This document shows, piece by piece, positions 923 to 39,865 of a stretch of DNA of 39,865 nt; the first letter of the stretch is position 1, and each line of letters begins with the position of its first letter. This stretch comes from a virus: positions 1 to 39,865 of IMG/VR virus record IMGVR_UViG_3300035698_019908; one strand, given 5' to 3'. A program made the translations under genes and the position numbers. Below the pieces are notes generated by a model. It saw nothing but the letters and a program-made list of their open reading frames with translations. It was not told where the DNA came from and searched no databases.

Positions 923-2872
923 ATGAAGACAATTAGTTTGAAAGAAATATTAAATGGCGCTGTAGATAAGCAACTTGAAGTACAAGATGAAGTAAATAAG
1001 ATTGATGATATATTAAAGCTTATTGATATTAAGAGCGATGCTTACAATTCTTGGTTAAACAAGAAAGCTGAACTACAAGCGAAGTTAGCATTATTAAAAG
1101 GGCAAGAAGAAGAGAAAGTAAAAGACGCAGGGAAAGAATCATTTAGAGAAGGAGTTAATGGGCCTTCAGACCAAGACACACAGTATTTAGCTAAGAAAAT
1201 GTACAACCAACATTGGGATAATTTAAGTACAAGTCAACAAGATGCTATATATAAGAAATTAGGTTCAGAATCTGTTGACGAAGAAGAAGTTGAGGTTAAA
1301 AAAGAAGTAGCAATCACAAAAAAGGATGATACATATGTTGTAGAAAACTTGGATGTTACTGTAGACAAAGTAAAGCAAGAAGTTGCCGACGAAGAGAAAT
1401 TAGATTTTCTTGATACAATAACAAAAGATGAACCAAAGCAAGAAGCTTTTAACGATAACCCATCGGTTATTTGTATAGGGGATAGAGTTAGAATTGGAAG
1501 TGGGGTTCATTCAAATGATTTTGGAACTGTTGTGAAAGTTGTACCAAATGAAGGTACTTATGAAATAGCATTAGAAGGAAGTAAGGATAAAATAGTTGTT
1601 GGTGGAAATACATATGTTGTTAAAGCTGAATCTGTTATTCAAAACGAAAAAGATTTAAAAGAAATGTTTAAAGCAATGGCTGAATCAAAGTCTAATTATT
1701 ATGAGAGTGCATTAACTAAATCTGATGAAAAATGGATGGTTGATTTATTCTTAACAGGAATGGGTTCGGAAGATATTGCTCAAATGTTGAGAATAGAAAA
1801 AGGAAAAACTATTACACCAAAAGGCGTATTATATATAGTACAAAATTTTAAAGAATCTTTTGACAGCGAATTGGCAATGGGAATAGAATTAGAAAAGGAA
1901 CACACAGAAGATCCAGCAGTTGCAGAAAAAATTGCTAGAGATCATCTGGCAGAAATTCCTGATTATTATACTATATTACAATCAATGGAAGCTGGAGCTC
2001 AAATTGGAGAAGAATCTTTGAGAGAAGCATTCAAAGCTGGAGATAAAGTAATTACACCTGATGGAAAGAAAGGTTATATTTATCAAGTACAAGATGATAA
2101 GTTTAGAGTTACTTCACAACCACAAACAGGATTGATTGGTTGGTTTAAAGGAAGTGAATTAAAACAAGAATCTTTGAGAGAAAGTATAGCAACGATATCA
2201 AAGGATAAAAGAATAATGAGTGATGGAAAGTCTAAATATATAGTAAAGTATGATGGCAATACATATACAACTGATGAATCAAAAGCATCCATTATTAATA
2301 GATTAAAAGCGAAAGGATATATAATTAAAAGTGAGTCTTTAAAAGAAGGAATGGGAACAGATGGTGTTCCACGAAATGGCAAACCAAAGACTGATGACGA
2401 ACGAAAAGCTACTCATGGTGATGGAGAATTACCACCAAAGGGAACAGGATTAAAGAAAGAAGGAACACAAGCGGAACTAGATGATTTTTGGAAAAGAAAA
2501 ATTGACAATGCAAAAAAGATGAATAAAAGTTCTGATGAATTAAGAAAGATATTAGCAAAAAAGAATAACAAGGAAGAATCTTTAAAAGAAATAATAGATA
2601 GTAAAATTCTTCAAAGAGCAAGAGGAATAATTGACTCTAATGATAATCCAACAAGTCAAATAAATGATTTGGTTGATGATGGATATAGTTTAAAAGATGC
2701 TAAAGATTTAGTTATCGCAATTGCTGCTGGGGAAGAATCTTTAAAAGAAAGTGGAATGACTAGAGACCAAACAGCTCAAAAAATGTTTAAAAAGAATTTT
2801 AGTGATTTATCAAATGTAGAAAAAAATAAAGTTGATGATGATATGATGGCTACAATGTTTTTAGGACAATAA
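923..2872 (+). CDS. Modular 649-residue head-operon protein with repeated ESL(K/R)E junctions, candidate polyprotein
   Basis: ATG 923 has a good GGGGAGATT ribosome binding site. The protein is acidic/lysine-rich and built from unlike segments separated by a recurring pentapeptide: ESFRE at 72-76, ESLRE at 364-368 and 416-420, ESLKE at 471-475, 552-556 and 605-609. SLKE also occurs at residues 5-8. Between these lie an N-terminal coiled coil (about 15-70), an SH3/KOW-like strand module (GDRVRIGSG, about 184-235), a segment resembling DUF5661 (about 300-352, with ELEKEHTEDP and HLAEIPDYYT), a second SH3/KOW-like module (GDKVITPDG, about 372-412), a beta module (420-470), a Gly/Lys-rich stretch (476-512), and helical tails. 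The 79-115 segment resembles the last one (AKKMYNQ versus AQKMFKK). It lies immediately before MuF-like and portal genes, so it is probably packaged in the head. No enzyme signature is seen. Cleavage at the junctions by the prohead protease is inferred from T4-type (L/I)xE sites, not shown. Confidence 0.75.
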   Translation: MKTISLKEILNGAVDKQLEVQDEVNKIDDILKLIDIKSDAYNSWLNKKAELQAKLALLKGQEEEKVKDAGKESFREGVNGPSDQDTQYLAKKMYNQHWDNLSTSQQDAIYKKLGSESVDEEEVEVKKEVAITKKDDTYVVENLDVTVDKVKQEVADEEKLDFLDTITKDEPKQEAFNDNPSVICIGDRVRIGSGVHSNDFGTVVKVVPNEGTYEIALEGSKDKIVVGGNTYVVKAESVIQNEKDLKEMFKAMAESKSNYYESALTKSDEKWMVDLFLTGMGSEDIAQMLRIEKGKTITPKGVLYIVQNFKESFDSELAMGIELEKEHTEDPAVAEKIARDHLAEIPDYYTILQSMEAGAQIGEESLREAFKAGDKVITPDGKKGYIYQVQDDKFRVTSQPQTGLIGWFKGSELKQESLRESIATISKDKRIMSDGKSKYIVKYDGNTYTTDESKASIINRLKAKGYIIKSESLKEGMGTDGVPRNGKPKTDDERKATHGDGELPPKGTGLKKEGTQAELDDFWKRKIDNAKKMNKSSDELRKILAKKNNKEESLKEIIDSKILQRARGIIDSNDNPTSQINDLVDDGYSLKDAKDLVIAIAAGEESLKESGMTRDQTAQKMFKKNFSDLSNVEKNKVDDDMMATMFLGQ

Positions 2873-3099: not shown

Positions 3100-4548
3100 A
3101 TGAAAACATTTAGAGAAATATTGGGAACATTTAAAGAACAATCACAATTAATGAAAGGTATTATTCCAAAGGATAGAAGAGTAGATTTATTTGGAAAAGA
3201 ATATTTTACACCTCACGAAGAAATGCGTAAATGTAAACAAGCATATAATGATAATGGACTTATTTCAGCTGCAGTTGATTCACTTACAGATTTTATCATG
3301 GGTAATGACTTATTTATAGAAAGTGAGGATAAAAAAACAAAAGATTTTTACCAAAATATTATTGATGATAGTCAACCTGATATGTTTGAAACAACTAGAG
3401 AGTTTGTAGAAAATTGTGTTAAAACAGGAAATGGGTACATAGAAATTGATTGGGATGATAAAGGATTACCAAAAGCATATTATCCTGTTGCTGATTCAAC
3501 TAGAATATATTTAAACACAGATCCATATGGATTACCTTTAACTAAATCAGTGTTTGACCCAAAAACACAATCATCAAAAATAGTTTATAATTTAGATGAA
3601 TATTATATTCAAGAAGTTCCTACTAGTTGGAGAGCTCCAGATAACGCACCAGTTAAACCAAGATGGTTTAATTTAACTTATAGTTTTAGTAATTACCACG
3701 AAGTAAAGATTTATGGAATCCCAATTCATAGAGATAAATTAATGCATATTAAATGGGGAACAGGAGATAGTGGATTATATGGAAGAAGTTTTATTGCTAG
3801 TATTCTTGATGACCATGAAATTTTGAAAAGAATTGAGAAAGCAATGGGTATAATTGCTAAATATAAAGCAATTCCTAAAAAAATGTTTACTCCTGCTGAT
3901 GGAGAAGAATTTAGTCAAGATGATATTAATGAATTAGCAATGTATTTTGAAGGATTAGAAGATGATGAAAATGCTATTACTTGGAAAAATATGAAAGTAG
4001 AAGATTTATCATATGCTGGTAGAGAAATTAATATGGATGGTGCTGTAGACCATTGTCGTAGAAAAATTATTTCAGGTTTAACTCCAGAATTTTTAATTGG
4101 ATATGGAATGGATACTAATATGGCAACAGCAGACCAATTATTAATTGCTTTTATGCTTAGATTACAAACAAAAAGAAGATTATGGTCAAAACAATGGGAT
4201 AAATATTTTATTAAACCATATCAAAAAGTTCATCCAGAATTAAAAAAAGCTAAAGTTAAATTTGGAGATATTGATTTTAGAACCCCAAGTGAAAAGAATA
4301 ATGAAATTAGAGCTAAATGGCAAGGAAATCAAATTACTTATAATGAAATGAGAAAAGAAGAAGGTAAACCATCACATAAAAATGGAGAAATATTTTATAA
4401 AGATTTTATACAACAAGGAATGGATGAAAAACCAGCACTTCCTGCAGGTTCTAATAATCTTTCTCCTTCTCCAAAACAAGTTAAAGCTGAAAAATATAAA
4501 AAAGTAATTAAAAGAGCAGTTGAATTAGGGTTGAAGATAAATGATTAA
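3100..4548 (+). CDS. Portal protein
   Basis: 482 residues from ATG 3100, with GGTGA upstream. Length and organisation fit the portal family: N-terminal wing (DNGLISAAVDSLTDFIMGN, about 49-67), a beta-rich middle with KTGNGYIEI (about 108), the HIKWGTGDSGLYGRS turn (about 223-237), a long helical stem (HEILKRIEKAMGIIAKYKAIPKKMF), and the GLTPEFLIGYGMDTNMATADQ segment (about 327-348). The portal forms the dodecameric ring at one capsid vertex, through which DNA is packaged and ejected. The N terminus, MKTFREILGTFKE, carries two (F)xE tripeptides resembling the junctions in the 649-residue protein. Overlaps the next gene by eight bases. Large terminase, often just upstream, is not present in the window. 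Confidence 0.9.
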   Translation: MKTFREILGTFKEQSQLMKGIIPKDRRVDLFGKEYFTPHEEMRKCKQAYNDNGLISAAVDSLTDFIMGNDLFIESEDKKTKDFYQNIIDDSQPDMFETTREFVENCVKTGNGYIEIDWDDKGLPKAYYPVADSTRIYLNTDPYGLPLTKSVFDPKTQSSKIVYNLDEYYIQEVPTSWRAPDNAPVKPRWFNLTYSFSNYHEVKIYGIPIHRDKLMHIKWGTGDSGLYGRSFIASILDDHEILKRIEKAMGIIAKYKAIPKKMFTPADGEEFSQDDINELAMYFEGLEDDENAITWKNMKVEDLSYAGREINMDGAVDHCRRKIISGLTPEFLIGYGMDTNMATADQLLIAFMLRLQTKRRLWSKQWDKYFIKPYQKVHPELKKAKVKFGDIDFRTPSEKNNEIRAKWQGNQITYNEMRKEEGKPSHKNGEIFYKDFIQQGMDEKPALPAGSNNLSPSPKQVKAEKYKKVIKRAVELGLKIND

Positions 4549-5134: not shown

Positions 5135-6028
5135 ATGGATAAAGTAATGATAAAAGAAAGTATTTGGCAACCAGTTCAAGGTTATATGATTAAAGAAGAA
5201 TATGACCCTATTTCTAAAAAAGTAACAGGAATCATAATTGAAGGTAATGCTTTAGATACTACAATACCAACAAGAAATGGTGTTTTATATGACCATGCAA
5301 GTGTTGCAGCAACATGTAAAATGCTTGAAAAAAAACCAATGCTGTTAAATCATGATGAAACACAATTACCTATTGGGCATGTTGAACGTGCTTGGATGGA
5401 TGGAAATATATTAAAGTATAGAGGAAATTTAGATCCAGAAGAAAAAGATTTAATTAGAAAAATAAAACGTGGAGATATTAATAATGTATCAATACAAACA
5501 ATGGTAGATGAAGTATCACATGAAGAAAGTATGGATGGAAAACAATATACAAGAGCTTTTCCAGAAGATTGGGCAGAATTAAGTATTGTAACTATTCCAG
5601 GATATGCTGATAGTTCAATTAATCTTTCAGAAGCATTGAAATTATCAGAAAAAGGAATAAATAAAGAAAAATGTTCTATGATGTTTGTTAAGAAAAAAGA
5701 TGAAGATTTTTTTGAAAATATAATTAAGAAAAATAAATTAAAAGTTTATTCTAAAATTAGAGAAGGAAATAATATAAATTACACCTTAGATGATGGGATT
5801 GAAGAGCAAAAAGTAATTAAAGAAGAAATAGATGAAAAAGAAGATGACCCATATCTAATAACAAGTAAAGAGGATATTAATACATCTAATGCTGACGCAT
5901 TAATTACAACTGATTTAACAAAAAAGGTAAAGAAACAACCTGAACCATATATGTTAAATAGAGAAGCATTTAAACCAATGGAAGATGCATTAGAAGTTAT
6001 TAAAATTATCGAAAATATAGGAGGATAA
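5135..6028 (+). CDS. Prohead maturation protease (HK97 S78-like)
   Basis: 297 residues with an AGGAAGTG ribosome binding site. The protease core spans about 25-185: GIIIEGNALDTT, the histidine in PMLLNHDE (His73), and the serine in GDINNVSIQ (Ser119), followed by WAELSIVTIPGYADS. This His/Ser arrangement and the final strand are typical of herpesvirus-assemblin-fold prohead proteases. The enzyme is packaged in the procapsid and cuts scaffold and capsid N-terminal extensions. The last 100 residues (about 195-297) are charged and helical, perhaps a built-in scaffold or targeting tail. Its own N terminus, MDKVMIKES, contains IKE, a possible self-cleavage site. It lies directly upstream of scaffold and capsid genes. 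Confidence 0.85.
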   Translation: MDKVMIKESIWQPVQGYMIKEEYDPISKKVTGIIIEGNALDTTIPTRNGVLYDHASVAATCKMLEKKPMLLNHDETQLPIGHVERAWMDGNILKYRGNLDPEEKDLIRKIKRGDINNVSIQTMVDEVSHEESMDGKQYTRAFPEDWAELSIVTIPGYADSSINLSEALKLSEKGINKEKCSMMFVKKKDEDFFENIIKKNKLKVYSKIREGNNINYTLDDGIEEQKVIKEEIDEKEDDPYLITSKEDINTSNADALITTDLTKKVKKQPEPYMLNREAFKPMEDALEVIKIIENIGG

Positions 6029-6032
6029 GTTC

Positions 6033-6701
6033 ATGGCTAGAAAAAAATTTCTAATAGAACAATTTGATGATGAAGAAGATAAACCTAAGGTAGCCAAAGA
6101 ACAAGGGGACGGTGGGTTACAAGCAAAGGATGTTGACGCAGCAATGACAAAAAAAGCTGAAGAACCATCTGAACAATCAGGACAATCTGATGTTATACCA
6201 AACGAACCACTTGAAAAAGCAAAGGCTTTAACCGAAGGAGTAGATGATTCATCTGATAAAATTTCCAAATTGGAAGCAACTGTTAAAGATTTGTCAACAA
6301 AGTTAGAACAACTTATGGCAGATAAAGATGCAACTAAAAAGGAAGCAATGGATACTGAAGAGGAACCAAAAATTGATAAAGAGGAACCAAAAGCAGAAAA
6401 TGCAATTGGATTTGAGGGAGACACACCATCAGGACCTTCATTAGGAAGTAAATCTGATATTGACGGTGGCTTACAGAAAAAAGCTGTAGACCCACAGGCA
6501 ACAGCAAAAGCTGAGAATCCATCAACACAATCTGGACAAGATATGGTGATTCCAACAGAACCATTAGAAGATGTAAAAAAACTTAACGAACGTCTTTCAG
6601 GACGAAGAACAATGGTTGGTTCATACCAAACAAAAGGATTCACTGAAGCACAAGAAGTTGAGAATGTAATGAAAGAATACGCAAGGGGGAATAGAGTATG
6701 A
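6033..6701 (+). CDS. Scaffold-like protein with internal duplication
   Basis: 222 residues, very acidic, Ala/Glu/Lys-rich, with a central coiled coil (about 73-100, SKLEATVKDLSTKLEQL) and little predicted fold. It starts after an AGGAGGAT ribosome binding site and its TGA overlaps the capsid ATG as ATGA. Composition, coiled coil and position between protease and capsid genes are typical of capsid scaffolds. Two copies of a 45-residue block occur: residues 26-70 (GDGGLQ...EQSGQ...VIPNEPLE) and 143-187 (IDGGLQ...TQSGQ...VIPTEPLE). The N terminus FLIEQFDDEE and the C-terminal KGFTEAQ each contain an (L/F)xE tripeptide, possible protease sites. A decoration role is less likely. Confidence 0.7.
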   Translation: MARKKFLIEQFDDEEDKPKVAKEQGDGGLQAKDVDAAMTKKAEEPSEQSGQSDVIPNEPLEKAKALTEGVDDSSDKISKLEATVKDLSTKLEQLMADKDATKKEAMDTEEEPKIDKEEPKAENAIGFEGDTPSGPSLGSKSDIDGGLQKKAVDPQATAKAENPSTQSGQDMVIPTEPLEDVKKLNERLSGRRTMVGSYQTKGFTEAQEVENVMKEYARGNRV

Positions 6702-7663
6702 ATTTGAAAATAGATAGTATGGACGGAACAGCTCTTTGTGAAGCTGCCGGAAGGATGCTTTTAAAAGATGCTGCTAACAAAGGATATACTGAATCAATGA
6801 GATTTAGAGAAGATATATCGACTTCAACTGCTAGTGCACTTTATACAACTGCTTTGGCTACAGTAATAAGAGAAGCTGTAGAACCAAATTTGGTTGGTAT
6901 GGAATTACTACAATTGAATGACGACCTAATGAATGGTGGAGGTAAAGGTGCAATAAAATTACCAAAAGATGCACGAGTTACTGCTGCAGAAGTATCTGAA
7001 GGTGGAGCAATTTCTTACACAGGAACAGGATATTCTAGTGTAACTGTAACACCAACTAAAAAGATAGCTGCAAGTAAAATTACTTGGGAAATGATGAAAA
7101 GAGGAATGGCATCGCTAGTATCTCTTGAAGCAAAAAGAACAGGTAAAGCACTTGCAAGAAAAGTAGATTCTGATATCATAGGTGGAATTGAAGCAATTAT
7201 AACATCAGGCAACTCTAATAGAGTAGCAACTGGTGGAGCTGCAACAAGAGTAGATTATGATAACCTAATCGATGCTAGAAGTTATCTAGAAGATGATGAC
7301 TATAAAGCAACACACTTAATCCTACATCCAACAGATTATGCATCACTTTGTAAAGATACAGACTTCAAAGAAGCATTATATAGAGGAACTGTAGTACCAG
7401 GTGGACAAAAAGCAGCTTCAATCTTCCCATTAGTGGAATATTTTGGAGCAGAAAAGATTGTTAAAACATCACAAATAACTACTGGAACATCATTGTTCGT
7501 AGATTCTAACGAAGCAGGAACATTTGTTAAAGAAACAGATGTAGAAGTTGTTGACGGAAGAATTAGCGGAGCTGTAGATACAGAAATAATTGCTCTTCAG
7601 AGTTATGGTATAACCATCCAAAACGTTACTGCTTGTAGCGGGGTTGTAATGGCTGCTTCATAG
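6698..7663 (+). CDS. Major capsid protein, HK97 fold
   Basis: 321 residues, ATG overlapping the scaffold stop, preceded by AAGGGGG. The sequence follows the HK97-type plan: a 38-residue N-terminal extension, an N-arm (STSTASALYTTALATVIREAVEPN), the E-loop region (GAIKLPKDARVTAAEVSEGGAISY, about 85-110), spine-helix region (KITWEMMKRGMASLVSLEAKRTGKALARKVD), and the A-domain with the LILHPTDYASL strand (about 208). The end, AVDTEIIALQSYGITI, is also usual for this fold. ESMRFRED at 32-39 has a FxE tripeptide before the N-arm, so maturation cleavage after Glu38 is plausible. A strong hairpin follows the stop codon. This protein builds the icosahedral shell. Confidence 0.9.
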   Translation: MNLKIDSMDGTALCEAAGRMLLKDAANKGYTESMRFREDISTSTASALYTTALATVIREAVEPNLVGMELLQLNDDLMNGGGKGAIKLPKDARVTAAEVSEGGAISYTGTGYSSVTVTPTKKIAASKITWEMMKRGMASLVSLEAKRTGKALARKVDSDIIGGIEAIITSGNSNRVATGGAATRVDYDNLIDARSYLEDDDYKATHLILHPTDYASLCKDTDFKEALYRGTVVPGGQKAASIFPLVEYFGAEKIVKTSQITTGTSLFVDSNEAGTFVKETDVEVVDGRISGAVDTEIIALQSYGITIQNVTACSGVVMAAS

Positions 7664-7676
7664 TTGAAGTAACCTT

Positions 7677-7716
7677 AATTATATGGTACTATACAAAATG
7701 TATAGGCCATATAATT
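7677..7716 (+). terminator. Long hairpin downstream of the capsid gene
   Basis: AATTATATGG pairs perfectly with CCATATAATT, and inside it CTATACA pairs with TGTATAG around an AAA loop, with only a small TA/G interruption. That gives about 17 pairs beginning 13 bases after the capsid stop. It could end or slow transcription of the highly expressed capsid message or protect its 3' end from exonucleases. No U-tract follows directly, which favours a stabilising role or processing site. Confidence 0.5.
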
Positions 7717-7753
7717 ATAAATCTATTTATTTATTATATTATATATGAGTGAA

Positions 7754-7779
7754 AAAAGAATACTATATCTAATTCTTTT
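7754..7779 (+). terminator. AT-rich inverted repeat before the fibre block
   Basis: AAAAGAAT (7754-7761) pairs with ATTCTTTT (7772-7779) around a ten-base loop, ending in a T-rich arm. It lies between the capsid hairpin and the next TATA box, so it may complete termination of the head operon. Low sequence complexity makes this weak. Confidence 0.3.
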
Positions 7780-7787
7780 ATTAAAAA

Positions 7788-7800
7788 ATTATATTTAAAT
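7788..7800 (+). promoter_or_regulatory. TATA box for the fibre block
   Basis: ATTATATTTAAAT lies 23-35 bases before the ATG at 7823, which has no Shine-Dalgarno. TTTATATATTATT directly precedes the ATG. The arrangement suggests a leaderless transcript starting at or near the ATG and covering the 7823-8402 genes. Confidence 0.65.
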
Positions 7801-7822
7801 AATCGCAAATTTATATATTATT

Positions 7823-8188
7823 ATGGAAGGAAATATACTTGAAATATCTTTAAAATCTTTTATTAATTTTTATCGAGGGATATTAACATCACAAGATAGT
7901 AATAAACCATGGTTTTTTAAAGAAGATGAAATTAAATTTACACTTATTATTCCAGAAACTCCATTAATTATTATGATTAATGTACAAAAATCTGAAATTA
8001 TTGATGCTTCTCCAGATGTTGAAAAATTAAATTATGAAGAAATAATACAAAAATGGATGGAAGAAAATTTAAATAGAGCAATTCCTTTTGAATCATTTAA
8101 TCAAAAAGAAGAAATATTACCAGAAATTATTAATGAATCAATTGAAAATATAAGTGGTGTTGAAGATGACAGTTTACCAATCAACTAA
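7823..8188 (+). CDS. Hypothetical protein, 121 residues, first gene of fibre block
   Basis: Leaderless gene directly downstream of a strong TATA box. The N-terminal half looks like a small alpha/beta domain (FKEDEIKFTLIIPETPLIIMINVQ, about 34-57). The C-terminal half is acidic and helical. No signal peptide or membrane segment is evident, and no family is recognised. It overlaps the next gene by about 23 bases. Its place between capsid and fibre genes suggests a virion-associated or fibre-assembly protein, but this is positional inference only. Confidence 0.7.
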   Translation: MEGNILEISLKSFINFYRGILTSQDSNKPWFFKEDEIKFTLIIPETPLIIMINVQKSEIIDASPDVEKLNYEEIIQKWMEENLNRAIPFESFNQKEEILPEIINESIENISGVEDDSLPIN

Positions 8189-14454: not shown

Positions 14455-16482
14455 ATGGTTAATTATATCTCTTGTCAAACAAAACAAGTTACTTTTGCAG
14501 CAAGTAGCAATTCACAAGATGTTACACTAGACAATGCTGTTATAACTGCAAATTCTTTTATTATAGTAAAAGGAAGTAGTGATAATGGTGATTTGTCTGG
14601 TGTTCAAATTACTGCTGAATTTAAAGATACTTCTACTGTAACTTTAAAAAGAGGAAGTTCTGTTTTAAATTCAACAGTAAATGTTCAAGTTATAGAAGCA
14701 AATACAGGAACAATAAACCAAGCATTTAGTGTAACGCATGATGAAGTTACAATTGCTTCTGGAGATACAACCACAGCCGAGACTGTATCTGTTTCTGATT
14801 ATACTAATTGTGTTGTATTGGTAGATACAAGAACTACTGCTTCTTTAACAGATAATCCTGAACGGGTAAATGTTAGGGGGAAAATGTCTTCTAATACTAA
14901 TCTTGATTTGACAAGAGAAGGTAGTGGTACGGAAATTGTTGTTCGTTATCAAATAATAGAGTTTAGTAGTGATGTTAGTGTTCAATTGGGAACAGAAACA
15001 ATGACTGGTTCTGCTGGAGAAACAGCTTCTATTTCTGCTGTTACTCTTGCACAATCTGTTTTGTTTATTACAAGTAGTTGTAATACTAATGGTTTGGCTC
15101 AGTCTTCTCCGAGAGGATATTTTAATTCAACTACTGAACTTGGTTTTACTAGACAAACATCTACTGGAAATGTAACTATTGAGTGGGCTGTTGTTGAATT
15201 TCCTTCTAGTGTTGTGGTTCAATCGGACCAAGCAACTCGTGGTACTACTGGTACAGTGACTGATGTAACAATTTCTTCTGTTACGACAGCAAATTCTTTT
15301 CTTGTTTTTTCTAATGATTGTACTGGAACAGGAACAGCTTTTCCAAGAACAAAAATTACTGGTAGGATTGAGAATTCAACTAATCTTGAGTTTATTGAGC
15401 TTTATGTTGGACAAACAAAATTAATTGAATGGTTTGCAATTGATTCTTCTGGTTGGGAAGATGTTTGGAGTGTTGGTTCGTGGAGTGGAACAGAAACTTT
15501 TTCAATAACTTCTGGAACAACAGAAACTAAAACTTTTACTATTGATGCAATTTTAATAAATAGAAATACAAAAGATTTTACTATTGATTCTTTATTACAA
15601 CAAAATAATAATTTAAAAACATTTACTATTGATTCTTTAATACAAAAAAACGACAATTTAAAATCATTTACAATAAATAGTATAATTAAAGGAACATATG
15701 ATAAACAATTTACAATAGATTCATTAATACAAGATATTAATACAAAAACATTCACTATTAATTCAGGGATACAAGATACTAATACAAAAACATTTAGTAT
15801 AAACAGTATTATAATTGATACAAATATAAAGTCATTTAGTATTGATAGTATTCTTCAAAAAACTAATACAAAAGAATTTTCAATAAATTCGTTATTACAA
15901 AAAAATGATAATTTAAAAACATTTACAATAGATTCATTAATAACTGATTCTTTTGGAAATACTTTTACAATAAATAGTATAATCAAAGGAACTTTTGATA
16001 AACAATTTACAATTGATTCATTGATTAGAAGTGTAAAAACAAAAACATTTACTATTGATGCAATATTGTTAAAAACATATACAAAATCATTTGAGATAAA
16101 TTCAATGTTAAAACTTACATATACGAAAGATTTTACTATTGATTCTTTATTACAACAAGAAGATAATTTAAAAACATTTACAATTGATTCGTTTATTCAA
16201 AATTCATATACAAAAGATTTTAGCATAAATAGTTCATTAGTAAAAACTTCAACAAAAACTTTTTCAATTAATGCAATAATAATTGATGTTGTTAAAAAAA
16301 CCTTTACTATTGATTCAAGAATTGTATATAGTGCAGGGCAAGAACAACCAATTATGATTTGTTCAAAATTAACACCTGTAAGTATTATTCATATAAATTC
16401 TTCACAAAATAATATTAAAAATAGTGTTAGTATTACACAAATAAATAAAAATAATCCTTCTATAGTAGCATATGAGTATTGA
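14455..16482 (+). CDS. Long repeat-containing fibre protein
   Basis: 675 residues. The first 345 residues look like three related beta-sandwich units; each contains a pattern near TTANSFLVF or QSVLFITSS and ends with EFSSDVSVQ, EFPSSVVVQ or a similar strand, suggesting internal triplication. Residues about 358-627 are 19 tandem units of roughly 14 residues with consensus TKTFTIDSLIQKxN, an alternating hydrophobic pattern expected to build a beta-solenoid or extended fibre. A short unique C terminus follows. No Shine-Dalgarno is visible; the ATG follows the previous stop by one base, so it is likely coupled. It is probably the distal part of a virion fibre. Confidence 0.75.
   Translation: MVNYISCQTKQVTFAASSNSQDVTLDNAVITANSFIIVKGSSDNGDLSGVQITAEFKDTSTVTLKRGSSVLNSTVNVQVIEANTGTINQAFSVTHDEVTIASGDTTTAETVSVSDYTNCVVLVDTRTTASLTDNPERVNVRGKMSSNTNLDLTREGSGTEIVVRYQIIEFSSDVSVQLGTETMTGSAGETASISAVTLAQSVLFITSSCNTNGLAQSSPRGYFNSTTELGFTRQTSTGNVTIEWAVVEFPSSVVVQSDQATRGTTGTVTDVTISSVTTANSFLVFSNDCTGTGTAFPRTKITGRIENSTNLEFIELYVGQTKLIEWFAIDSSGWEDVWSVGSWSGTETFSITSGTTETKTFTIDAILINRNTKDFTIDSLLQQNNNLKTFTIDSLIQKNDNLKSFTINSIIKGTYDKQFTIDSLIQDINTKTFTINSGIQDTNTKTFSINSIIIDTNIKSFSIDSILQKTNTKEFSINSLLQKNDNLKTFTIDSLITDSFGNTFTINSIIKGTFDKQFTIDSLIRSVKTKTFTIDAILLKTYTKSFEINSMLKLTYTKDFTIDSLLQQEDNLKTFTIDSFIQNSYTKDFSINSSLVKTSTKTFSINAIIIDVVKKTFTIDSRIVYSAGQEQPIMICSKLTPVSIIHINSSQNNIKNSVSITQINKNNPSIVAYEY
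15526..16335 (+). repeat. 19 tandem 14-residue coding repeats (about 42 bases each)
   Basis: Units read (T/L/D)K(T/D/S/Q)F(T/S)I(D/N)S(L/I)(L/I)x4-5. Conserved positions are Lys2, Phe4, Ile6, Asp/Asn7 and Ser/Ala8. Neighbouring units are not identical in DNA, although pairs such as the two IIKGT(Y/F)DKQFTIDSLI blocks show that two or more units were sometimes copied together. Confidence 0.9.
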
Positions 16483-36985: not shown

Positions 36986-38167
36986 CTAAAAATCAAATAC
37001 ACTTTGTTGATAATTATTATTAATTACTTTTTTATTAAATAAAAATTTATATGTTTGCATTGTTTGTTCTAATCCATATTCTTTATAATAATCAAAAATT
37101 TTTATTATTTCTAAACAACTAGGAGCACTACGATTAATTAATTCAATAAATAAATCTTTATGATGAACAATATATGAACAATATTTTACAAAACAATCAA
37201 TTTGTTTTAAATTATGTATGTCAATATATCTCAAAAATTCATCATGCCAATTTTCATTTCCAATATTTAATTCTTGACAAACACTACAATTACAAAGCCA
37301 ACCATTACCTTTATTTTCTTTATTCATTTCTCGACCAACTTTAATTAAATCTAATGGAGTTGTATAATCAATCATCATTGCACCATATCTACTTCCAACT
37401 TTAAATGTTGAAGAATCAATAGTAATTGTTTGTCCTAATAAATATTGAATATATGCTGCAATAATAATACTCTTTTTTCCACTAATTTGTAAAAAATGAA
37501 GTGGTTTATTAATCTTCATTTCCATTGCTAGGATTCCATACATTGCAATTTTATAAATATTGTCTGATGGTTTAGGTGATAATGCCCATGCTTGAAATTC
37601 AAAACCATTTTGTTCTAATGAATGAATTTTTTCATACCATTCTAATGCTTGTTCCCAACTTTCACCTTGTATGACTCCATATAAGTCAATCTTTTTTTCT
37701 CCCTCTTGTAAGTCTGGTTTATTATTTATTTCTAATGCAACTTTAGCATTGTTATAAGTTGTTTCTAATGACTTACTAAAAAACTCTGTTGTTGGAGAAC
37801 CAGTGAACTGTGCCCCGCCACCAAAATTGTAAGGAGGTCTATCAAGTATTAAACCTGAATCTCCTCCTGAATTCATTTGCCAATTAATTACTTTTTGTGG
37901 AGAAAATTCTTTTCCTTGAGTTACACATTGGTATCCACCTGAATCTAATTTAATATGAACATCATCACTAATTTCTAAATATTCTCTAATATTAGTTATC
38001 TTTTGTTCAATACCAAAAAATGCAGAAACCAACATATAATCATAATTCCAGATACTTTCTTTATTCCAAAAGTGTGGTTTTTTCTTATGAATACTTGTGT
38101 TATATAGTGCTTTTGCTGGCATTACTGCTGGCAAATATATCAGTTTATTTTCAGGGTAATCGCTCAT
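36986..38167 (-). CDS. dpdA: DNA 7-deazaguanine transglycosylase (DpdA-like)
   Basis: 393 residues. TGT-superfamily motifs: LDSGGYQ (D75), GVIQGE (164-169), LHFLQISG (223-230), TIDSSTFKVGSRYG (D251) as nucleophile region, and a zinc site C292-N-C294-x2-C297 with His318. The length and DSGGYQ/IDSST pattern fit phage DpdA rather than archaeal tRNA-guanine transglycosylase, which has extra PUA domains absent here. DpdA swaps guanine in DNA for a 7-deazaguanine precursor, protecting viral DNA from host restriction. QueF and QueC in the same operon supply the base. A tRNA substrate remains possible but less likely. Confidence 0.85.
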   Translation of the reverse strand: MSDYPENKLIYLPAVMPAKALYNTSIHKKKPHFWNKESIWNYDYMLVSAFFGIEQKITNIREYLEISDDVHIKLDSGGYQCVTQGKEFSPQKVINWQMNSGGDSGLILDRPPYNFGGGAQFTGSPTTEFFSKSLETTYNNAKVALEINNKPDLQEGEKKIDLYGVIQGESWEQALEWYEKIHSLEQNGFEFQAWALSPKPSDNIYKIAMYGILAMEMKINKPLHFLQISGKKSIIIAAYIQYLLGQTITIDSSTFKVGSRYGAMMIDYTTPLDLIKVGREMNKENKGNGWLCNCSVCQELNIGNENWHDEFLRYIDIHNLKQIDCFVKYCSYIVHHKDLFIELINRSAPSCLEIIKIFDYYKEYGLEQTMQTYKFLFNKKVINNNYQQSVFDF

Positions 38168-38176
38168 TTAAATCAA

Positions 38177-38665
38177 CTACAAATGCCTCTGGTGCAATGG
38201 TTTAATTGTTGAATAATGTATTGGAGTGTTATAATCTTTTGCACAATATTCAACAACTGGATTAATACTAATTCCACCTCGTGGAGTAAAATCACCAACA
38301 ACTCTAATCCATTTTGGGTCCATTAATTTAATTAAATCTTTCATAATTAAATTAACACAATCCTCATGAAAATCTCCATGATTTCTATAACTGAATAAAT
38401 ATAATTTTAATGATTTAGATTCAACCATATTTATTCTAGGAACATACAGAATAGATATTGTAGCAAAATCTGGTTGATTTGTTTTTGGACATAATGATGT
38501 AAATTCAGGACACTTCCATGATACTAAATAATTATTTTCTTGATGTTTATTTTTAAATGTTTCTAATACTTCAGGTTTAACTTTATTTAATTCATATTGT
38601 GTTTTTTGATTTCCAAGTAAACTTACACCTTTCAATTCTTTTTCATTTCTACCATCTTGTTCCAT
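38177..38665 (-). CDS. queF: NADPH-dependent 7-cyano-7-deazaguanine reductase QueF
   Basis: 162 residues, GGAGG ribosome site. The catalytic segment [16 protein letters not shown] carries Cys59 and Asp66, and [25 protein letters not shown] carries the NADPH-binding ESKSLK motif and Glu101. This is the single-domain (YkvM-type) QueF that reduces preQ0 to preQ1. Archaeal QueF-L amidinotransferases lack the ESKSxK motif, so true reductase activity is predicted. It is placed between the flavoprotein and DpdA genes, so preQ1 is likely the base inserted in DNA, as reported for halovirus HVTV-1. Confidence 0.92.
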
Positions 38666-38682
38666 ATTAATTCCTCCATATA

Positions 38683-39339
38683 TTATTCATTATTAAAAAT
38701 ATTTATAATGTTAATTGATTTTTTTTCACAAATTTCTTTTATTTCATCACAAAACTTTTTTGTTCCGCAAATATATCCAACACCAAAAGTATGTTTTAAT
38801 TTTTTAAATTTATCTTGAACATGTTTTTTTTCTTTTTCTCTTGAATGAACAACTCTAATAGAAAGTCGTCCATTCGTTTTACATTTTTTAATTTTCTTTT
38901 TTAATTGTTTTAATTCAATTTCAAAAGGAGCAAGACATTCTTTCTTAACTCCATAGTATAAAACAACCTTTTTTTCATTTCTAATTAATTCTTCTATAAT
39001 TGATTTCATTGTTATTATTCCTGAACCAATACAAAATAAATAATAATAAGGATGTTTTAAATCTACCTTAAAATATTGTTTTGGTGTTGTAAATTGTATT
39101 TTATTTCCTAAATCTAAATTACATAACGAACAACTTGCTCCTTCTGGCGTTCTTGTTTTTACACATAATTCTAATGTTCCATCATCTTTATTTTGATTAA
39201 TCGAAAAAATTTTTGTTTTATATGTAATTATTGAACCACAAGGAACAATTATTTTTTTAGTTGGTTGTATGGAAAAAGTAACATATTGTATTTTACCTTC
39301 ATCAAAAAAGGTTTGTTTATTAATTATTACTCCTTCCAT
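38683..39339 (-). CDS. Ferredoxin/flavodoxin-NADP reductase-like flavoprotein
   Basis: 218 residues from ATG 39339; a TTG at 39348 is in frame but less likely. Residues about 1-95 form the FAD-binding barrel ([19 protein letters not shown]... [27 protein letters not shown]). The NAD(P) lobe has [16 protein letters not shown] (GTGIAPMxS equivalent, about 108), VVLYYGVK and the end [21 protein letters not shown] (CGP equivalent). No 2Fe-2S domain is fused, although CSLC and other cysteines occur. It lies between queC and queF with short gaps. It may pass electrons to an Fe-S enzyme (a QueE-like radical-SAM protein beyond the window or the SPASM-like protein) or to an unknown deazaguanine step. 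QueF itself takes NADPH directly. Confidence 0.75.
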
Positions 39340-39352
39340 ATAAATCAACTTT

Positions 39353-39865
39353 TTATTTTTGTATATTATTTAATATTTTTACTGCTTCTTCCCATTCTTG
39401 ATTTGTTAATAAAGGGTCTTTAATTTTGTTTTTATAAAATGCTTCTGTTCTTTCAATACAAGTACCACATTTTAAACAAGGTCTTTCTTTTCCTTTATAG
39501 CATGACCAAGTTGCTTCATACGGCACCTTTAATGCAAGTCCCTTCTTTACAATATCCCATTTCATTATATTATTAAATGGAGATTTAATTGTTATTTCAT
39601 TATAAGTTCCAAGCCATGCAGCTTCACTCATCGCTTCAGTGAATTCTTTTCGGCAATCAGGATAAATGTTATGGTCCCCCTTATGACTTCCTATCATAAC
39701 TTTTGTTGCACCAATGCTTTCAGCATAACCAACAGCTACTGCTAACATTATTCCATTTCTAAAAGGAACAACAGTTGACTTCATATTATCATCAGCATAA
39801 TGCCCCTCTGGAATTTCTTCATCAGAGTTATTTAATAAACTAGATTTGAAATGTTTGTTTAAACC
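39353..39865 (-). CDS. queC: 7-cyano-7-deazaguanine synthase QueC, C-terminal part (5' end outside window)
   Basis: The frame is open through the right edge; 170 residues are visible. EEIPEGHYADDNMKSTVVPFRNGIMLAVAVGYAE is the conserved central segment, followed by GSHKGDHNIYPDCRKEFTEAM. The zinc-binding end is CYKGKERPCLKCGTCIERTEAF, with the C-x8-CxxCxxC pattern. QueC turns 7-carboxy-7-deazaguanine into preQ0 with ATP and ammonia. The N-terminal PP-loop SGGxDS lies beyond the edge. An ATG at 39784 is internal, not the start. It heads the visible deazaguanine cassette; QueD, QueE and GTP cyclohydrolase genes might follow outside. Confidence 0.92.
   Translation of the reverse strand, partial: GLNKHFKSSLLNNSDEEIPEGHYADDNMKSTVVPFRNGIMLAVAVGYAESIGATKVMIGSHKGDHNIYPDCRKEFTEAMSEAAWLGTYNEITIKSPFNNIMKWDIVKKGLALKVPYEATWSCYKGKERPCLKCGTCIERTEAFYKNKIKDPLLTNQEWEEAVKILNNIQK

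Follow-up and report, generated by a model that had tools for sequence, protein, structure and literature searches.

We asked what is encoded by a 649-residue reading frame that repeats one short motif along its length, among the head genes of a virus known from an IMG/VR record (IMGVR_UViG_3300035698_019908). We call the whole stretch of viral DNA analysed, 39,865 nt long, the window. Downstream of the frame lie a MuF fragment and genes for a portal, an S78-type prohead protease, a scaffold-like protein and a capsid protein (Table 1). An earlier note on this DNA had reported six copies of the motif, ES(L/F)(K/R)E, starting at residues 72, 364, 416, 471, 552 and 605, together with an SLKE near the N terminus; the six were found at those places, and the SLKE at residues 5-8. 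Shuffled sequences of the same composition contain 0.005 copies on average, and never more than one in any of 5000 shuffles. The other proteins of the window contain no strict match, the nearest being MKTFRE in the portal and RFRE at the capsid site. Two weaker sites had been missed by the earlier reading: NFKE↓S at residues 308-311, and DLKE, ending at residue 247 (the arrow marks the predicted cut).

Table 1. Features of the modular gene and of the head genes that follow it, in window coordinates.
Feature	Position	Strand	Basis
Modular head-operon protein, 649 aa	923..2872	+	ORF and motif scan; DUF5661 by Pfam
N-terminal leader SLKE (MKTISLKE↓IL), residues 5-8	935..946	+	Motif scan; portal start similar (MKTFRE↓IL)
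Junction ESFRE↓G, residues 72-76	1136..1150	+	Motif scan; rank 2 in site model
NGPSD...IYKKLG module, residues 79-114, begins 2 residues past junction	1157..1264	+	Homology to L107
Extra site NFKE↓S, residues 308-311, immediately N-terminal to DUF5661	1844..1855	+	Rank 5 in site model
DUF5661 module, residues 317-356, predicted three-helix mini-domain	1871..1990	+	Pfam E 2.5e-12; AlphaFold2 pLDDT 88
Junction ESLRE↓A, residues 364-368	2012..2026	+	Motif scan
SH3/YajC-like module, residues 369-415, weak assignment	2027..2167	+	YajC E 0.002, below cut-off
Junction ESLRE↓S, residues 416-420	2168..2182	+	Motif scan and site model
Beta-beta-alpha module, residues 421-470, bounded by two junctions	2183..2332	+	AlphaFold2 block
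Junction ESLKE↓G, residues 471-475	2333..2347	+	Motif scan and site model
Junction ESLKE↓I, residues 552-556	2576..2590	+	Motif scan
Junction ESLKE↓S, residues 605-609	2735..2749	+	Motif scan and site model
C-terminal module, residues 610-649, possible diverged copy of NGPSD module	2750..2869	+	Local alignment
Portal protein; N terminus MKTFRE↓ILGTFKE has same site	3100..4548	+	Profile match, site model
S78-type prohead protease, proposed cutting enzyme	5135..6028	+	Profile match; invariant S119, E148
Capsid-like site KE↓DINTSNADAL near protease C terminus (E246), possible autocleavage site	5867..5872	+	Sequence comparison, site model
Scaffold-like protein, before capsid gene	6033..6701	+	Weak coiled-coil profile matches; position
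Major capsid protein	6698..7663	+	Profile match
Capsid site FRE↓D, residues 36-38	6803..6811	+	Conserved (K/R)E↓D; rank 1, model trained without window

The motifs had been thought to mark a change of fold each time; the recognised modules adjoin motifs, and none straddles one. DUF5661 is the one firm domain (residues 317-356; 47.4 bits against a Pfam gathering score of 27, E=2.5e-12), and the NGPSD module has a homologue in a relative, with 61% identity to residues 391-426 of L107:4790-6559 (E 4e-10). The SH3/KOW calls proved weak, as the first such module has no profile match and the second matches YajC below the cut-off. The remaining modules are likewise weakly defined. The beta-beta-alpha block is modelled by AlphaFold2 with pLDDT 66-81, dropping to 33 at the junction, and the C-terminal module aligns locally with the NGPSD module at a score of 34, a value reached in 7 of 2000 shuffles. 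Because single-sequence AlphaFold2 gives the whole protein a mean pLDDT of 44, too poor for a fold search, most module boundaries depend on homology or local features. Searches of Pfam and PHROGs profiles with isolated modules of the window gave no convincing match, the DUF5661 fold found nothing in the PDB below E=4, PADLOC returned nothing for the 649-residue protein, and no full-length homologue of it was present in IMG/VR or GenBank phages.

Repeats of this kind could be a by-product of module shuffling, either as short stretches of DNA used for recombination or as a neutral helical linker. The earlier note had indeed stressed that the DNA of the junctions is alike. The similarity is there, but it follows mostly from identical amino acids and codon bias, and the flanking DNA is dissimilar. 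Only the serine codon is mildly over-uniform (TCT in five of six junctions, P about 0.01), which, with the shuffling of modules among viruses, speaks for such an origin; the remaining junction DNA is as codon bias predicts, and we rejected a recombination repeat on these grounds. Distant viruses, moreover, use the protein motif between different modules, and the motif follows the capsid site, as described below; we consider a shuffling by-product very improbable.

A (K/R)E↓D preceding the conserved arm is invariant in 15 capsid proteins, that of the window included, and most of these proteins add upstream an (L/F)(K/R)E with G, S or D as the next residue. We built a five-position site model from 26 putative capsid sites of 14 other viruses, with the window excluded, and scored it over about 12,400 window positions; the training sites are themselves predicted, not measured. 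The model ranked the window's own capsid site first, placed five of its top 11 positions in the 649-residue protein, which accounts for 5.2% of window residues, and put the portal N terminus, MKTFRE↓IL, at rank 12. The residue following the cut (P1') is Asp at the capsid site in every relative; it is G, A, S or I at the junctions of the 649-residue protein. Across 14 loci including the window, we counted [ST]-hydrophobic-[KR]E 55 times among the 35,087 residues on the head side, that is, upstream of the capsid gene, and 7 times among the 34,794 others. This is an 8-fold difference in density (17-fold when the window is left out), the significance of which is indicative only, since the loci are related and the definition of head-side is crude. 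For control patterns, in which the motif ran backwards or had Asp in place of Glu, the difference was only about 1.4-fold.

The likely enzyme is encoded downstream. The window protease matches Peptidase_S78 (Pfam PF04586, E=2.3e-9, 38 bits against a 21-bit cut-off) and, below the equivalog cut-off, NCBIfam TIGR01543 (E=4.7e-9). H73, S119 and E148 are invariant among 11 aligned proteases, and we take them to be catalytic, as in the S78 family at large. An analogy to T4 gp21 had been drawn earlier; it stands only as regards Glu specificity: by profile the window protease is S78/HK97-like and not a demonstrated gp21 homologue. Close to its C terminus it holds a capsid-like stretch, KEDINTSNADAL. 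In a related virus (L004) the protease tail matches the N-terminal region of the capsid protein (E=5e-5) and, in addition, a modular gene that is unrelated elsewhere along its length (E=3e-4). The claim that head-protease sites lie between the modules is thereby partly supported: the same site is found at the relatives' capsid maturation region and a capsid-like one near the protease C terminus, which strengthens the claim as to the identity of the site. For possible autocleavage there is a parallel in SPN3US gp245, which shortens itself at the C terminus (PMC5694885). The capsid-N-terminus-like stretch, of the form KED[IV]xT.N...L, occurs in the window protease (5867-5872) and again in the modular gene L025:3036-5027.

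Searching with the capsid and protease yielded the head operons of about a dozen related contigs in IMG/VR, as well as a further set of more distant relatives (L106-L110). Three related lineages join SH3-like, zinc-ribbon, DUF5661 and DUF7417 modules by the motif, in varying order and sometimes fused to the protease. In the virus represented by L004 and L025, the protease (919 aa) bears a modular tail in which ESLKE, ESFKE↓A and ESFKE↓Y flank zinc-ribbon-like and SH3-like modules. A second modular gene of this virus (L025:913-1932) has RFKE, ESLKE and ESYKE between modules, and a third, on the head side (L025:3036-5027), pairs a capsid-like site, KEDVTTGNAGGL, with a weak N-formylglutamate-amidohydrolase-like module that is a possible enzyme cargo. 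Junctions in L106 and L107 read ESLKE↓S, ESFKE↓F and ESFRE↓L; L106 has both KAESLKE↓S and GEESLKE↓S, the latter identical to the last junction of the window (GEESLKE↓SG). The proposed junction motif is also found between unrelated modules in the head operons of other viruses, and outside head genes it is far less common.

Single modules also occur elsewhere as free genes or in another order. In Streptomyces phages DUF7417 has a gene of its own, of 77 residues, that lacks the motif, whereas in L106 (residues 303-370) it has HKE↓D in front and ESLKE↓S at its end; the NGPSD module occurs in L107 in a different order. There it is directly preceded by NESVS and not by a Glu site, so that to this extent a module is kept where the motif is not, a pattern the earlier note had counted against itself. 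In L107 several genes start with a leader, MKYTEKL..LHKE, of which a variant, ESFKYTEKLTKLKE, lies inside one gene, before DUF5661. DUF5661 is a widespread domain: at least 571 viral stretches contain it, and fusions join it to protease genes (L013, L020, L055) and to a portal gene (L061). We rejected the possibility that the motif is an integral part of this domain: among 89 DUF5661 reading frames the hydrophobic-centred motif is found only in the 649-residue protein, and other ES.[KR]E occurrences are few and single (for example ESGKE and ESERE). In the L061 gene (3355-6702) the portal is fused to MuF, and DUF5661 is present twice in the C-terminal part. No relative turned up when an 84,980-species genome collection was searched with the capsid and the modules, and the window's capsid, primase-like and TGT-like proteins had no match among GenBank phages.

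Given that the junction motif matches the virus's own predicted capsid site, the string of modules is probably loaded into the growing head and cut. We accordingly lean, at somewhat better than an even chance, towards a modular head-interior protein whose (L/F)(K/R)E sites would be cut in trans by the S78 protease and whose pieces would be kept or delivered. We infer the following course. The chain would enter the procapsid along with portal, scaffold and protease, and the activated protease would cut it after Glu at (L/F)(K/R)E, the site class also predicted for this enzyme in the capsid protein and in the protease tail. The products would be roughly eight pieces of 4-26 kDa and a short N-terminal leader; some of the pieces would be retained in the head and probably pass into the host together with the DNA. 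Every junction would then be an internal copy of a targeting and processing leader, so that modules could be exchanged, gained or transferred to other head genes.

The same cuts could instead be those of an assembly core like T4 gp22, gp67 and gp68, degraded and expelled with no role as cargo. T4 gp21 breaks these proteins down into small peptides, which are presumed to exit the prohead (PMC9958956), SPN3US propeptides hold several sites, with at least three of those in gp53 being cut (PMC10052503), and the first part of the 649-residue protein is predicted to be helical. However, its sites lie between compact modules and not within them, a separate scaffold-like gene is present, and the same or similar modules are free-standing elsewhere, which argues for functions of their own. 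We regard a core protein as unlikely. It is also conceivable, but in our estimation distinctly improbable, that ESLKE is a docking motif that stays uncut and tethers each module to the scaffold, the protease or the capsid interior, comparable to the cargo-loading peptide of encapsulins. The ES before the tripeptide is conserved to a degree that the capsid sites do not show and the motif stands at module edges, as docking would suggest, but the tripeptide itself matches the capsid and protease-tail sites of the relatives, a match that docking does not need. One motif could serve for both docking and cutting, as the T4 targeting sequence does.

A cut cargo protein of the kind we favour has several partial precedents. 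The T4 internal proteins IPI-III and Alt carry a capsid-targeting leader that is cut after Glu by the head protease (PMC3012670, PMC5694885). They resemble the scheme proposed here in this leader removal and in a diverse cargo with the leader alone in common, and the leader of the 649-residue protein, MKTISLKE↓IL, fits by sequence a T4-type leader ending in a post-Glu site. Unlike the T4 proteins, which are single and have one N-terminal leader, with one cut giving one mature protein, the 649-residue protein has six strict internal motifs, and the window's protease is S78/HK97-like by profile. Polyvalent proteins of phages are made of many modules, with proposed co-delivery with DNA and processing into units, and were compared to polyproteins by their describers (Iyer et al., 2017; PMC5512222). 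Their processing is ascribed to an embedded metallopeptidase, whereas Pfam and NCBIfam searches found no peptidase domain in the 649-residue protein, whose sites imply a head protease acting in trans.

SPN3US and phiKZ have a Glu-directed prohead protease, C-terminal autocleavage of that protease and several cuts per substrate (PMC5694885, PMC10052503), but nearly all their mapped cuts strip N-terminal propeptides off one mature protein and separate no modules, and the SPN3US motif is A-x-E, in contrast to (L/F)(K/R)E at the window's junctions. P1 packages DarA, DdrB and DarB into its head, some of them processed and DarB targeted by an N-terminal signal (PMC9024508); repeated internal sites are not described for them, against the six found here. 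A DdrB-like ParB was matched once and weakly (E=0.06), in L107, where the reading frame at 7120-7848 is a probable leader gene (MRYTEKLLLLHES...) continuing into a ParB-like domain that gave this match to the P1 DdrB-like ParB profile. The proposed scheme differs from these precedents in its many internal sites, in separating modules and not shredding a propeptide, and in having no embedded peptidase.

The other arm of the window encodes a family-B polymerase, an SNF2 helicase, a Hef/XPF-like nuclease and a QueC, GTP-cyclohydrolase and TgtA-like cluster; in this gene content the nuclease, the TgtA-like protein and the polymerase suggest an archaeal host. We propose tentatively, and at rather less than an even chance, that some uncultivated tailed viruses, probably archaeal, have a true capsid-cargo polyprotein, with swappable modules released in trans within the head and co-delivered with DNA. 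If so, the junction motif would be an address label by which head-delivered modules, including ones of unknown function such as DUF5661 and DUF7417, could be marked in uncultivated viruses from sequence alone, and proteomics could be told which exact product ends to expect. The idea of capsid targeting, known from T4, would also be widened to include a polyprotein processed by a separate head protease, and this would offer a route to co-packaging several proteins at a fixed ratio. The QueC, GTP-cyclohydrolase, TgtA-like and reductase-like genes at 36986-39784 on the minus strand are probably a 7-deazaguanine DNA-modification set. In a structural protein at 14455-16482, the sequence K(T/S)F(T/S)I(D/N)S is repeated in tandem many times.
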